Below, piece by piece: positions 42,376-46,498 of a stretch of 64,000 bases of DNA. The notes under the pieces are model-generated. The model worked only from the letters and a program-made list of their open reading frames with translations. It was not told where the DNA came from and searched no databases. How positions within the stretch are numbered: position 1 is the stretch's first letter; every line of letters begins with the position of its first letter. The position numbers and the translations under genes are program-made. The stretch is from Bradyrhizobium diazoefficiens. GTDB taxonomy: Bacteria; Pseudomonadota; Alphaproteobacteria; Rhizobiales; Xanthobacteraceae. Location of the stretch: assembly GCF_018129965.1 (NCBI RefSeq), contig NZ_JAFCKW010000013.1, positions 1-64,000 on the forward strand, in the 5' to 3' direction.

Positions 42376-43506
42376 TTGCCGCTCCCGGCAGCGCACACCG
42401 TATCGGCCCCGTTCACGGGACGGAACTTCGTTGCGCTCGATGGATTGCGCGGCGTTGCGGCGATCATGGTCGCCCTCCGACATGCTCCTTTCCTCTCGGA
42501 TAATCCGGCTGCGTCGTCTGGATGGATGCGAAACAGCTACCTTGCCGTCGACCTGTTCTTCGTTCTGTCGGGATTTGTGCTGGAGCATGCCTATCGCGCA
42601 CGCTTCGCCAAGGGGTTGCCGGTCCGGTCATTCATGCTCGACAGGCTCCTGCGGCTCTACCCGCTCTACGCGCTGGCCTTCATCCTCTCGCTGCCCTTTC
42701 TACTTGCGCAGCTGGCCGTTGGCGTGCCGCACCCGATGCAAATGGTGCTCGGTCTGTTTTGCAGCGCGCTGATGCTGCCGACTCCGAATGCTGCCCACGC
42801 CGGCGCGGATCTCTACCCGTTCAACTTCGCCGCATGGTCGCTGTTCTTTGAGCTTTCGGCAAACCTGCTGTTTGCGGCTTTCGGACCGCGGCTCCGCACG
42901 ACCTTCCTGATCTGGCTCGTCGGCGGGTTCGCTTTTGCACTCGTGGCCTGCGCCACGATGGGATGGCTTGGATTCGGTATCGAAGTCGCGAAGCGCGGTG
43001 TCCTGGGGGGCGGGCCAACCTGGGAAACCTTCGGCGTCGGCGTGATACGGGTCGGGTTCGCGTTCTTTGCGGGTGTGTTGCTCTATCGATTCCACGACAC
43101 GGCGCGGTTGCCTCCGGCAACACCCGGGTTCGCGATCGGCTCATTCGCGCTGGTCATCGCCATTCTTGCGCTGGCGTTTCCCGCAAGCCTCGATCTCCCG
43201 TTGAGTCTCGTCTGCGTGATCGCAGTGTTTCCGCTTGCCATCATGATCTGCGCGCGTTTTGACTCTCCGCGGGGCACCCTATCAAGCGTGATGCAGACCC
43301 TCGGTCTTCTGTCCTACGGCATTTATGTTCTGCAGGTCGTGACGTTCCACGCGATTGAGGTTTGCGCCCTGAATCTTGGGATTCACTCGGCCCTTGCAGG
43401 GCTTGCTGCGATCCCCATGGTCGCGGTGGCAGCTTACGGCGCCACCGCGTTCGTCGATGTTCCCGTCAGGCTCGCGATGAAACAGGCTTTGAGGGGGGCC
43501 GCGTAG
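42376..43506 (+). CDS. Acyltransferase family 3 membrane protein (OafA/YrhL-type)
   Basis: A 376-residue polytopic inner-membrane acyltransferase. The family opening FVALDGLRGVAAIMVALRH (with the histidine) is followed by about ten hydrophobic segments and YLAVDLFFVLSGFVLEH. These proteins move acetyl or other acyl groups to cell-surface sugars. The start is TTG at 42376 with GAGGA at a 9-base spacing. Not linked to visible glycan genes except the remnants 6 kb upstream. Confidence 0.88.
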   Translation: MPLPAAHTVSAPFTGRNFVALDGLRGVAAIMVALRHAPFLSDNPAASSGWMRNSYLAVDLFFVLSGFVLEHAYRARFAKGLPVRSFMLDRLLRLYPLYALAFILSLPFLLAQLAVGVPHPMQMVLGLFCSALMLPTPNAAHAGADLYPFNFAAWSLFFELSANLLFAAFGPRLRTTFLIWLVGGFAFALVACATMGWLGFGIEVAKRGVLGGGPTWETFGVGVIRVGFAFFAGVLLYRFHDTARLPPATPGFAIGSFALVIAILALAFPASLDLPLSLVCVIAVFPLAIMICARFDSPRGTLSSVMQTLGLLSYGIYVLQVVTFHAIEVCALNLGIHSALAGLAAIPMVAVAAYGATAFVDVPVRLAMKQALRGAA

Positions 43507-43552
43507 GAGAGGGAGAACGGCAGCGCTCGGCGCCGCCTGCCCAATCCTCCGC

Positions 43553-44578
43553 TCAAGCCATCGCACGCTGCGGCAACAGCTCCGCGATCTGCACCGCATT
43601 CAGCGCGGCGCCCTTGAGCAGTTGGTCGGCCGCCACGAACATCGAGATCGAATGGCCACTGGGATCGCTGAGGTCCTTGCGGATGCGGCCGACCAGGACA
43701 TCGTCCTGGCCCGAGGCGTCGATCGGCATCGGGAAGTAGTTCTTCACGCGGTCGTCGACGATCCTCACGCCGGGTGCCTGCGCCATGATGGCGCGAACCT
43801 GGTCCTCGGTGATCGGATTCTCGCATTCGAAGGTGATGGCCTCGCAATGGGCGCGCAGCACCGGCACGCGGACGCAGGTGACGCCGATCGCGATCCTGTC
43901 GTCCTCGAAGATCTTGCGGGTCTCCTTGATGACCTTGGTCTCTTCGTCGTTGTAGCCGGTCTCGGGATCGACGGCGGTGTTGTGGTTGAAGAGATTGAAG
44001 GCGTAGGGGTGCGGCATCACCTTGGGCGTATAGACCTGCCCGTTTAGATTGGCGCGGGTGGACTCGACGAGTTCGTCCATCGCAGCGGCGCCGGCGCCGG
44101 AAGCCGCCTGATAGGTCGAGATGATCACGCGCTTGATGCGGTTCTTCTGGTGGATCGGCCACAGCGGCACCAGTGCGGTGATGGCGGCGCAGTTCGGGTT
44201 GGCGATGATGCCCTTGTGGTCGCGGATGCGGCCTGCGTTGATCTCGGGGATCACCAGCGGCACGTTCGGATCCATGCGGAAGGCGGAGGAGTTGTCGACC
44301 ACGACGGCGCCGGCCTTGACCGCGAGCGGTGCATACTTCTTCGAGATGCTGCCGCCGGCGGAGAACAAGGCGATGTCGACGCCCTGGAAGGCGCGCTCGG
44401 TCAGCTCCTCGATGACGACGTCCTTGCCGCGGAACGATACCGTCTTGCCGGCCGAGCGGGCGCTTGCGAGCGCCTTGAGCTTGCCGACGCGAAAGCCGCG
44501 CTTGTCCATGGTGGCGATGAATTCGGCGCCTACCGCACCGGTGACGCCGACAATCGCGACGACGGGATCGTTACTCAC
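43553..44578 (-). CDS. asd: Aspartate-semialdehyde dehydrogenase
   Basis: NADPH-dependent reduction of aspartyl phosphate to aspartate semialdehyde, the branch point to lysine/diaminopimelate, threonine and methionine. 341 residues. The Rossmann loop is VGVTGAVGAEF, the catalytic cysteine lies in IIANPNCAAITALVPL near residue 130, and FEDDRIAIGVTCVRVPVLRAHCEA carries the active-site histidine. The GTG at 44578 is chosen: GGAGG lies 5 bases before it, whereas an ATG at 44590 has none. A terminator hairpin and Thr-rich leader ORF precede it. Confidence 0.96.
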   Translation of the reverse strand: MSNDPVVAIVGVTGAVGAEFIATMDKRGFRVGKLKALASARSAGKTVSFRGKDVVIEELTERAFQGVDIALFSAGGSISKKYAPLAVKAGAVVVDNSSAFRMDPNVPLVIPEINAGRIRDHKGIIANPNCAAITALVPLWPIHQKNRIKRVIISTYQAASGAGAAAMDELVESTRANLNGQVYTPKVMPHPYAFNLFNHNTAVDPETGYNDEETKVIKETRKIFEDDRIAIGVTCVRVPVLRAHCEAITFECENPITEDQVRAIMAQAPGVRIVDDRVKNYFPMPIDASGQDDVLVGRIRKDLSDPSGHSISMFVAADQLLKGAALNAVQIAELLPQRAMA

Positions 44579-44610
44579 TGTGTCCTCCATTGAATTGCGA
44601 TTTAGACAAC

Positions 44611-44642
44611 AAAAAAGCCCCGGACCATCATGGGCGGGGCTT
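44611..44642 (-). promoter_or_regulatory. Predicted attenuator terminator in the asd leader
   Basis: On the minus strand a stem AAGCCCCG (44642-44635) pairs with CGGGGCTT and ends in six Ts (44616-44611). It stands only about 32 bp before the asd GTG, too close for a separate promoter to fit between, so transcription must pass it. This is the position of an attenuator. A copy of CGGGGC at 44700-44695 in the leader ORF could compete for the proximal arm as an antiterminator. Confidence 0.72.
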
Positions 44643-44672
44643 CGGTAGAGCTGATTGCGTTCTAGTCGACGA

Positions 44673-44744
44673 CTACAAGCGCACGCCTCCCCGGGCCCCG
44701 AAGGCCGTGGTGGTTTTGGTCGTGCGTTTGGCGGTCGTGAACAT
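44673..44744 (-). CDS. Threonine-rich leader peptide of asd (23 residues)
   Basis: ATG at 44744 opens a 23-codon frame (MFTTAKRTTKTTTAF, then GARGGVRL) ending with TAG at 44673-44675. Seven of the first 13 residues are Thr and two are Lys; both are end products of the pathway that asd serves. No Shine-Dalgarno is seen. The -10 box ends 8 bases before the ATG, so the mRNA probably starts at or within 0-3 bases of the ATG (leaderless). A palindrome (TAGTCG-T-CGACTA) starts at the stop codon. The ORF is short and its translation unproven. Confidence 0.62.
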   Translation of the reverse strand: MFTTAKRTTKTTTAFGARGGVRL

Positions 44745-44752
44745 GGCGGCGA

Positions 44753-44781
44753 CTTATGCGGGAGAGTCCGGCGCCCGTCAA
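44753..44781 (-). promoter_or_regulatory. Predicted promoter of the asd leader
   Basis: TTGACG (44781-44776) and CATAAG (44758-44753) are separated by 17 bp and lie just past the stop of the PepSY gene at 44810. Transcription would start at or a few bases before the leader ATG at 44744. Confidence 0.6.
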
Positions 44782-44809
44782 TGGCTTTTCGGCGGGATTG
44801 TGGCCGCTG

Positions 44810-45415
44810 CTATTTTGCGGCGGCGCCCGGCGGCTCGAGGATGACCTCCTTGAGGTCGTCACCGCTGATGACGACGATCGCGAAATTCAGCCGGCCATGT
44901 TCACGCATCAGCCCGCCGCTGATCGCCTTGCCGGATGCTGCGTGCTCGGCGACGCGGACCGCATCCGCAAGCCGGTGCCGGATCGCGCCGAGCGCGGCGA
45001 GATTGCTGCGATCGTCTAGCTCGAGCTCGCTCAGGGGGAGGGCAGCTTCGCCGCCGATGAGCTCGCCGGTGGAAGCGTTGATGGTGTGCCGCCAGATGCG
45101 GTCGTTTTGCAGGGTCTTGACACGGTAGACCGGTACGCCCGAGGCGCCATCGAAGCTGACATCCGCGGTCGTGGCGCCGGCGTGGCGCGCTTCGGCAATG
45201 GCCATGGCCTGGCTGATCGAGACGCTCGAACTGCGGAAGCGTTCGATCTCCCGGCTGACCGCCTGCCGGTCGGCCTCGGCGTTCTCATCTGCCTGCCCGT
45301 GGAGGGCCGTGGGCGTGCCACCGTCCGGGACAGCCGCCCGCACCGGCGCAGCAACGAACAGCGCCGACAGGGCGAATGCAAAGAAGATCAAGCGGGGTCG
45401 TCGTGCTGCCGTCAT
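44810..45415 (-). CDS. Exported PepSY-domain protein
   Basis: A 201-residue protein with a signal peptide at residues 1-27 (ends APVRA). The mature part has a PepSY-like fold: SISQAMAIAEARHAGATTADVSFDGASGVPVYRVKTLQNDRIWRHTINASTGELIGGE, with the VYxVxV strand and DxxTGE turn. PepSY domains usually act as inhibitory or stabilising modules near the envelope. The ATG at 45415 is taken; a longer open start at 45625 lies at the promoter. The promoter about 225 bp upstream carries a palindromic operator. Confidence 0.78.
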   Translation of the reverse strand: MTAARRPRLIFFAFALSALFVAAPVRAAVPDGGTPTALHGQADENAEADRQAVSREIERFRSSSVSISQAMAIAEARHAGATTADVSFDGASGVPVYRVKTLQNDRIWRHTINASTGELIGGEAALPLSELELDDRSNLAALGAIRHRLADAVRVAEHAASGKAISGGLMREHGRLNFAIVVISGDDLKEVILEPPGAAAK

Positions 45416-45715
45416 GCTCGAAACCCTTGGTACGTCCGAAGATCTGGCACATTCCAAAGACTGGAATGCGCGACATCGCGTCCGGGGAGTGTGCCCGATG
45501 GTCGTAAAGAATTCGCGGCCGACCGTGGGCAACGGCCGGCCGCGGAGCGCTGCTGCGGGCTGTACCCGTCGCAGCGATCTCAGCGATGCGGACCACCTTG
45601 GGGCTGGTAAAAAAGCGTTCCGCATCGCCTATAACTAAACCATACCGTATCGTTTTATTTTGGTCAATGGCGCGGCATGCTCCCCTTCGGGATAGGCCGC
45701 GAACTCACGGAATTG
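45416..45715. other. Gap (300 bp) with PepSY promoter and long leader
   Basis: The operator-bearing promoter lies at 45637-45667. The 5' leader to the PepSY start is about 215 bp and shows no recognisable ORF with a ribosome site. Confidence 0.5.
45637..45667 (-). promoter_or_regulatory. Promoter with overlapping palindromic operator, PepSY gene
   Basis: TTGACC (45667-45662), a 17-bp spacer and TATGGT (45644-45639) form a promoter reading toward the PepSY gene. A near-perfect 19-bp palindrome, AAACCATACCGTATCGTTT, covers 45637-45655 and so overlies the -10 box and part of the spacer. The same design occurs at 47842-47870. Confidence 0.68.
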
Positions 45716-46498
45716 TCAGCGGGAGGAGCGACGGCGCGGGCCGGCTTTCGCCGCGTCCTTGATGCGGCCGGCGGGGCCGAGCGCGCCGGCCAGGAACAGC
45801 TTGATCGCTGCGCGCATCCGCTTCTCGGCGGATTTGAATTCCATCGGCGTTCCGAACGTCGCCATGCGGTGGGTATGGCCCACGACGACATCGAGAAAAA
45901 CCTCGGCCGCAATGGTGGTGTCTTCGACGTCGAGGGCTGATTGCGCCACCAGATGATCGAAGAAGCGCGCCGTGGTGGCGACGGCCTTCAGCCAGCCCTC
46001 TTCCTTGCCGAGCTTGGCGATGTCGGGGAAATTGATGGCCTGTGACGTCATCATGCGGCTGAAGGCCATGGCGTCCGGCCCGCAGGTAAACGTCAGCATC
46101 TCCCGCCCGATCTCGACCAGCCGCTGCTCGACGGAGATGTCGGACGAACTGCCAAGCTGCGTTTCGGCTGCCGCCGAGAGTGGGGCAAGCCAGCGCGCAA
46201 TCTCGCGCCTCAGCACCGCCGTGAACAGGCCGCGCTTGTCGCCGTAGCGGGAATAGACGGTCGGCTTGCTGACGCGCGCCGCTTCCGCGACCGCATCCAG
46301 CGAGGTGGCGTCAAAGCCGCGGTCCAGGAACAGGCGGGTGGCGACCTCGATCAGCCGCTGGTCGCGCTCGATGGCGGCGCTTTTCGTCGGCCGCCCGCCG
46401 CGCGATTTCGGCACCTCGCGCCGGGACGATGCCGGTCTTGCCCTGGTCGCGGTCAATCCCATGCCCAATGATTCCTGCGCGGTCGCTACAATGGTCAT
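45716..46498 (-). CDS. TetR/AcrR-family transcriptional regulator
   Basis: A 260-residue repressor-type regulator. After a basic N terminus (about 35 residues, RGGRPTKSA) comes the TetR helix-turn-helix (about 45-90): VATRLFLDRGFDATSLDAVAEAARVSKPTVYSRYGDKRGLF. The C-terminal ligand-binding region includes VEEHVFLDVVVGHTHRMATFG-like residues. The start is uncertain: ATGs at 46498 and 46462 are possible, the latter with AGGAA. It lies between the PepSY and patatin genes, each with an alike operator; it is the natural candidate to bind both. Confidence 0.85.
   Translation of the reverse strand: MTIVATAQESLGMGLTATRARPASSRREVPKSRGGRPTKSAAIERDQRLIEVATRLFLDRGFDATSLDAVAEAARVSKPTVYSRYGDKRGLFTAVLRREIARWLAPLSAAAETQLGSSSDISVEQRLVEIGREMLTFTCGPDAMAFSRMMTSQAINFPDIAKLGKEEGWLKAVATTARFFDHLVAQSALDVEDTTIAAEVFLDVVVGHTHRMATFGTPMEFKSAEKRMRAAIKLFLAGALGPAGRIKDAAKAGPRRRSSR

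Follow-up and report, generated by a model that had tools for sequence, protein, structure and literature searches.

Aspartate-semialdehyde dehydrogenase is the branch-point enzyme for lysine, threonine, methionine and isoleucine. The genome of Bradyrhizobium diazoefficiens studied here holds two genes for it, asd: one lies on the minus strand of the window, by which we mean the whole stretch of 64,000 nucleotides that was analysed, and the other, 46% identical to it, lies at G000:C10:1606-2598, where no Thr/Lys leader was seen upstream by eye. What, then, controls the copy in the window? A preliminary description of this DNA had pointed to a short threonine-rich ORF and a hairpin ahead of the gene, and had read them as a transcription attenuator. 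The parts on which our answer turns are these:

44776..44781, minus strand: -35 element TTGACG, read from the sequence.
44753..44758, minus strand: -10 element CATAAG, 17 nt of spacer away from the -35 and 8 nt ahead of the leader ATG.
44673..44744, minus strand: leader ORF of 23 codons, MFTTAKRTTKTTTAFGARGGVRL, from the ATG at 44744 to the TAG that ends at 44673.
44706..44738, minus strand: Thr/Lys control codons 3-13 (Thr at 3, 4, 8, 9, 11, 12 and 13; Lys at 6 and 10), from the codon table and folding.
44673..44700, minus strand: 5' strand of the antiterminator, within codons 15-23 plus the stop, from folding; synonymous recoding weakens it.
44635..44650, minus strand: 3' strand of the antiterminator, CUCUACCGAAGCCCCG, whose GAAGCCCCG doubles as the 5' arm of the terminator.
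44611..44643, minus strand: intrinsic terminator hairpin and six U, from sequence and fold energy.
44584..44588, minus strand: Shine-Dalgarno sequence GGAGG of asd, read from the sequence.
43553..44578, minus strand: asd (aspartate-semialdehyde dehydrogenase), by its match to TIGR01296, with the start at GTG 44578.

The product of the gene scores 403.3 bits against TIGR01296 (asd_B), for which the cut-off is 324.2. GTG 44578 is most likely its start, because the ATG at 44590 overlaps the Shine-Dalgarno sequence and reads ACG in 7 of 80 named relatives (all Bradyrhizobium except two, L100 and L101). Ahead of it, a direct reading of the sequence upholds the coordinates given earlier for TTGACG-17-CATAAG, the 23-codon ORF and the U-tailed hairpin. 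The ORF MFTTAKRTTKTTTAFGARGGVRL has seven Thr within its first 13 codons, plus two Lys. The hairpin runs from GAAGCCCCG to CGGGGC (44643-44617), followed by six T (44616-44611), and leaves 32 nt to the GTG. A same-strand ORF upstream of the leader ends at 44810. Simple promoter and terminator scans did not flag the leader promoter or terminator sites, and the fold of the full 173-nt leader is just modestly more stable than those of its shuffles (z -1.70).

How far does this arrangement extend among relatives? Bradyrhizobium belongs to the order Hyphomicrobiales of the class Alphaproteobacteria, and 56 of 60 sampled genomes of the genus hold an asd copy of the window's type, the remaining four (G031, G040, G047 and G052) having only the other asd. 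Among the 56, the copy of G050 is broken, that of G036 has one internal stop and that of G059 is matched only to residue 302. A covariance model of the leader, R1, built from 24 diverse leaders, finds a match at E <= 1e-10 in exactly these 56 genomes and is absent from the four without a window-type asd. In its own genome the window is the sole strong R1 match (E 3.6e-43). We call an ORF T/K-rich when Thr and Lys together fill 7 or more of 13 codons, Thr alone 4 or more, and it starts with ATG or GTG, 400 nt being scanned. The next R1 match in the genome (E 3.0e-5) is a plain hairpin with no such ORF (best 3 of 13), and the hom gene of the same genome has none upstream (best 4 of 13).

We also collected 134 loci through their asd (L001-L134), which comprise 108 distinct leaders, 66 distinct ORFs and 53 distinct peptides; L001-L030 and L031-L110 are partly the same assemblies, and the 134 loci are not 134 independent genomes. 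Since 133 of the 134 fit a strict promoter-ORF-terminator pattern and another pattern of this kind catches the one that it missed (L042), we regard it as confirmed that the arrangement is not a product of chance. Because the collecting pattern required TTGAC, CATA and, 4-14 nt further on, an ATG, the conservation figures apply to the 133 loci meeting it. Among 116 distinct leader sequences, the -35 is TTGACG in 114, and both the 17-nt spacer and CATAAG occur in 115. The gap from the -10 to the leader ATG is 8 nt in 108 of the 116 and 7-11 nt across all, where the pattern itself permitted 4-14 nt. Since the -10 stands only 8 nt before the ATG, the leader mRNA is probably leaderless, or has very few bases ahead of the ORF. 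The ORF is 23 codons long in 111 leaders, 22 in three and 24 in two, and the distance from its stop to the T-run varies from 56 to 64, shifting by single bases. The 53 peptides have 3-8 Thr in their first 13 codons, and the terminator folds at -15.1 to -19.7 kcal/mol, with a mean of -17.2 over the 108 distinct leaders. In fact, the relatives behave as the preliminary description had anticipated: the start, the hairpin and the majority of the Thr codons are preserved while other codons vary.

Can such a leader act as a switch? The stretch of window RNA that begins at codon 15 and stops short of the distal terminator arm forms a long stem at -32.0 kcal/mol, made of CGGGGC/GCCCCG, CGG/CCG and GGAG/CUCU pairs and an apical hairpin. 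In these folds antiterminator and terminator are mutually exclusive. The segment CGGGGC, to which the antiterminator had first been ascribed, is present in codons 15-17 of the window (44700-44695) and does take part in the stem, but the stem is longer than proposed and includes codons 18-23 and CUCUACCG ahead of the terminator arm. The exact form of the segment is not always kept: codons 15-17 hold CGGGGC in just 32 of 61 distinct 23-codon ORFs, AGGGGC in 12 and other sequences in the rest. Two Gly codons that lie in the antiterminator, GGG16 and GGA19, are kept in 58 and 61 of these 61 ORFs, and GGG and GGA are rare, at 11% and 7% of Gly codons.

The folding test varied the first base left free by the ribosome, over the 108 distinct leaders. 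Before the distal arm is made, the antiterminator exceeds a probability of 0.5 in 45 of the 108 leaders with no ribosome, in 100 with a ribosome that leaves the RNA free after codon 6, and in all 108 after codons 9, 12 or 14; the number falls to 44 after codon 16, 38 after codon 18 and one after codon 20. Once the distal arm is there, the terminator has a mean equilibrium probability of 0.69, 0.29, 0.54 and 0.09 after codons 6, 9, 12 and 14, and of 0.98-1.00 from codon 16 on. The value of 0.54 after codon 12 means that a switch at this point would depend on the order in which the RNA folds. Without a ribosome the picture is mixed, the antiterminator standing at 0.44 before the distal arm and the terminator at 0.91 at equilibrium. 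These computations bear out the idea that a stall in the Thr region would free codons 15 onward for the antiterminator and that translation to the stop would give the terminator. The antiterminating position would correspond to a ribosome whose A site lies at roughly codons 5-11, and it is there that the most constant Thr and Lys codons are found.

The stem depends on the particular codons used. When codons 15-23 were changed synonymously according to the codon usage of the window, in 21 of 24 representative leaders, every one of the 21 had a native fold of greater stability than the mean of its recodings (mean z -1.69); the fraction of recodings at least as stable as the native sequence averaged 0.10 and was below 0.05 in 10 of the 21. 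With the window RNA free from codon 15, the terminator has a probability of 0.003 in the native leader against a recoded mean of 0.918, and 1% of the recodings are as low. Exceptions occur: among 13 leaders, L114, L134 and L130 keep terminator probabilities of 0.85, 0.93 and 0.53 with codons 15 onward free. Covariation was considered as a proof of structure and rejected, the signal being weak in the antiterminator (four pairs changed on both sides, each in a single sequence; 5 of 500 shuffles reach as much) and nil beyond shuffles in the terminator. An RNAalifold consensus showed the terminator but no antiterminator.

To explain these results, we propose that the element is, very probably, a ribosome-mediated transcription attenuator that would sense charged tRNA-Thr and tRNA-Lys. 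A short ORF rich in codons for pathway end products (7 Thr, 2 Lys) is followed by an intrinsic terminator between it and asd, and an exclusive antiterminator is, by folding, favoured by stalling. We infer that the transcript begins at the leader AUG or a few bases from it, and that a ribosome would translate the Thr and Lys codons 3-13. If Thr-tRNA or Lys-tRNA ran short, the ribosome would wait at the control codons and codons 15-23 would be left free; these would pair with CUCUACCGAAGCCCCG while the distal terminator arm has yet to be transcribed, and RNA polymerase would continue into asd. With Thr and Lys plentiful, the ribosome would reach the UAG and cover the end of the ORF, and no antiterminator would form; GAAGCCCCG would then pair with CGGGGCUU and transcription would terminate. 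The bacterium would in this way probably raise asd when short of Thr or Lys. The attenuation mechanism that had been put forward at the outset is thus largely supported by computation, through conservation and the folding switch.

Similar leaders accompany asd of the window's type in other families. An R1 search of 190 genomes of the class gave 18 matches at E <= 0.001 outside the window's genome. Five of them, all among the best six, lie upstream of an asd 63-80% identical to that of the window (L347 in G373, L348 in G461, L349 in G508, L350 in G455 and L352 in G550), in genomes that span four families other than the window's; the other 13 have no asd in the surrounding stretch examined. By eye, a -10-like element lies no more than about a dozen bases from the start of each of the five leaders. 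Their peptides are MSPKTKATTKTKKPFRASVIARA (L347, also L335), which is Lys-rich, MRRSTDKRTTTSTKTPAGVVEACAR (L348), MTQATKRATTTKTKPSGAGIARA (L349) and MYMLTIKRMTKKTPAGGAVESCAR (L350), and the ORF of L352 contains MFAAIFKRTTMTKKPFAGRLRLRVR; L350 and L352 have 6 Thr+Lys in 13 codons, under our threshold of 7. In L347, L348 and L349 the Thr/Lys content is retained while codons and bases differ from those of the genus. In several of the five, Lys is AAG, so that the residues stay while the bases change. Within the window's order, a genome of family f50 (G261) has a 63% identical asd with MVARHTTKRTVKTTACAGVSTGAWPVAAT upstream; its R1 match is in the right place and weak, at E 0.015, a level that many unrelated matches equal or surpass, and reaches E 7.8e-5 in a smaller search. 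The order-level R1 search gave weak matches outside the genus (best E 1.1e-6), and tblastn placed none of 24 of these matches (L176-L199) just upstream of an asd gene; the edge of L199 holds the start of a canonical asd. As a separate observation, MYMLTIKRMTKKTPAGGAVESCAR has Met and Ile besides Thr and Lys, all of them products of the aspartate family.

Canonical asd genes, too, are often preceded by such ORFs. Among 121 genomes of the order, 119 had an asd match and 85 canonical asd upstreams (in L201-L286) were long enough to scan: 51 of the 85 have a T/K-rich ORF, for example MRTKTIATTKTTTT and MACALITKTTTIKTTKTTTV. The same holds for 5 of 40 canonical asd in the wider class (129 genomes with a match), for 5 of 19 further second asd copies of mixed type, and for only one of 21 canonical asd in the window's own family, the other 20 being without. 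In controls, T/K-rich ORFs appeared in 0 of 85 reverse strands, in 5 of 1700 shuffles of the order-level asd upstreams and in 0 of 372 unrelated windows. A terminator-like site of -8 kcal/mol or better follows 12 of the 56 canonical T/K leaders of order and class, while the scan found no U-tract terminator in the remaining 44, and the mechanism of the canonical leaders may differ from that of the window's. Translational control of canonical asd, through pairing between the spacer start and the Shine-Dalgarno sequence, was tried as a candidate and dropped when it failed the shuffle test (56 leaders, mean z 0.12, two below -2).

On the strength of these surveys we think it reasonably likely that asd is widely placed under Thr/Lys-reading upstream ORFs in Alphaproteobacteria, in two architectures. 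One would be an attenuator with a leaderless ORF and an intrinsic terminator, attached to the second asd type in Bradyrhizobium and in four or more further families; the other, poor in terminators, would accompany the canonical asd of many Hyphomicrobiales. Canonical copies in the window's family are mostly without a leader, and in Bradyrhizobium it would be the second copy that carries the regulation.

Which amino acids are read? The leader had been described as Thr-rich. The Thr codons are indeed kept, but the description should read 'Thr and Lys', the codons Lys6 and Lys10 being as conserved as any Thr. Over the 61 distinct 23-codon ORFs, Lys6 is kept in 61 (as AAA in every one) and Lys10 in 60; Thr11 is kept in 61, Thr5 in 58, Thr8 in 57, Thr9 in 49 and Thr3 in 47, and less constantly Thr12 in 45 (Lys in 10), Thr4 in 41 and Thr13 in 38 (Lys in 11). 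Codon 5 is Ala in the window although it is Thr in 58 of the 61. The leaders write Lys as AAA in 142 of 154 codons (66 distinct ORFs); 25 long ORFs of the window, picked mechanically, have AAA at 15% of their Lys codons and AAG at 85%, and asd itself uses AAG in 18 of 18 and AAA in none. Since the Lys codons are as conserved as the Thr codons, both charged tRNAs are probably sensed. That the attenuator senses threonine only, the Lys codons being incidental, is the most serious alternative, and we hold it to be unlikely. It can appeal to the seven Thr against two Lys in the window, and to the upstream ORFs of canonical asd in the order, where Thr is the most over-represented residue, Ala the second and Lys just the third. 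Yet most Thr codons are kept less often than Lys6 and Lys10, 10-11 of the 61 ORFs have Lys instead of Thr at codons 12-13, the distant leader MSPKTKATTKTKKPFRASVIARA is Lys-rich, and lysine, too, is made from this branch point.

Does the peptide itself matter? In Sinorhizobium meliloti, rnTrpL is a leaderless small mRNA (PMC10117765), and a terminated leader of about 135 nt would be one as well. The terminated RNA or the peptide might thus act in trans in the manner of rnTrpL/peTrpL, besides or instead of attenuating asd. We consider this improbable: no purifying selection on the leader peptide was found, the synonymous fraction of changes counted along a minimum spanning tree being 0.21 against 0.30 expected without selection, and a peptide sequence conserved by selection, which marks trans-acting leader peptides, is thus missing here. 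The peptide is also very different between families while the layout is constant. For a peptide free of purifying selection, it would be the codons that matter and not the product. The lack of such selection also counts to some degree against the attenuator itself.

It could also be argued that the hairpin terminates the upstream gene, that asd has its own later promoter and that the short ORF is there by chance. The hairpin does lie downstream of the same-strand ORF ending at 44810, but just 32 nt separate the T-run from GTG 44578, promoter-like elements stand directly ahead of the ORF in the 116 distinct leader sequences collected, T/K ORFs precede asd far above controls, and the 15 of 80 named relatives with an insert between hairpin and asd keep the leader; we give this reading very little credence. 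Least credible of all is a metabolite-binding riboswitch (for lysine, for example) in place of a translated leader: a structured leader with a terminator ahead of a Lys/Thr pathway gene would suit it, but Rfam 15 has no family at gathering score in 43000-46000 (two matches at E <= 5, the best being asX2 on the opposite strand, with 22.4 bits against a gathering score of 70), the frame, start and stop of the ORF are retained, and so are Thr/Lys codons between families whose bases differ.

On the computed evidence, we therefore place the element of the window with thrL-type attenuators, as one that would read Thr and Lys from a probably leaderless leader. In thrL of Escherichia coli, a Thr-rich leader peptide with exclusive antiterminator and terminator controls thrABC, and Ile is the second residue. 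The likeness is one of layout: a Thr-rich leader, exclusive folds and control of an aspartate-family gene. Here, however, the controlled gene is asd alone and not thrABC, Lys replaces Ile as the second residue, no Shine-Dalgarno sequence precedes the leader ORF and the antiterminator strand lies inside it. The probably leaderless start recalls trpL/rnTrpL of S. meliloti, a leaderless leader ORF, likewise in an alphaproteobacterium, with an attenuator before a biosynthetic gene (PMC10117765), whereas here the residues are Thr/Lys instead of Trp and there is no sign of peptide selection. Leaderless mRNAs have been reported in B. japonicum (PMC4842269), in a paper whose main text mentions neither 'asd' nor 'semialdehyde'.

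The closest precedent for the codons is SEP5 of S. meliloti, a small ORF that has six Thr codons and three Lys codons and lies in the 5'-UTR of what its authors call an aspartate dehydrogenase gene; they suggest that it is possibly a leader peptide and report it as conserved only in Sinorhizobium (PMC10117765). It is a Thr/Lys ORF as here. Among our canonical T/K leaders, 44 of 56 are without a terminator that the scan could detect. In the open-access literature searched, outside which most subscription papers fall, such a leader peptide is suggested only in passing, for this Sinorhizobium 'aspartate dehydrogenase' gene. Thr/Lys upstream ORFs before asd have a wider occurrence that is apparently little described. 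If our reading is right, Bradyrhizobium would sense Thr and Lys directly at the enzyme supplying both branches, which would suggest a reason for keeping a second asd copy. The system would also be a compact one, in which the leaderless start, the stalling codon and the switch could each be tested by single codon changes.

A minor observation concerns the insert between the attenuator and the asd Shine-Dalgarno sequence. A 19-nt pattern derived from it was not found in the window with up to three mismatches allowed. The insert measures about 50 nt, looks palindromic, contains CATGATCCGGAAAAG and occurs in 15 of the 80 named relatives (L038, L041, L043, L045, L046, L048, L073, L077, L080, L085, L089, L090, L091, L095 and L104).
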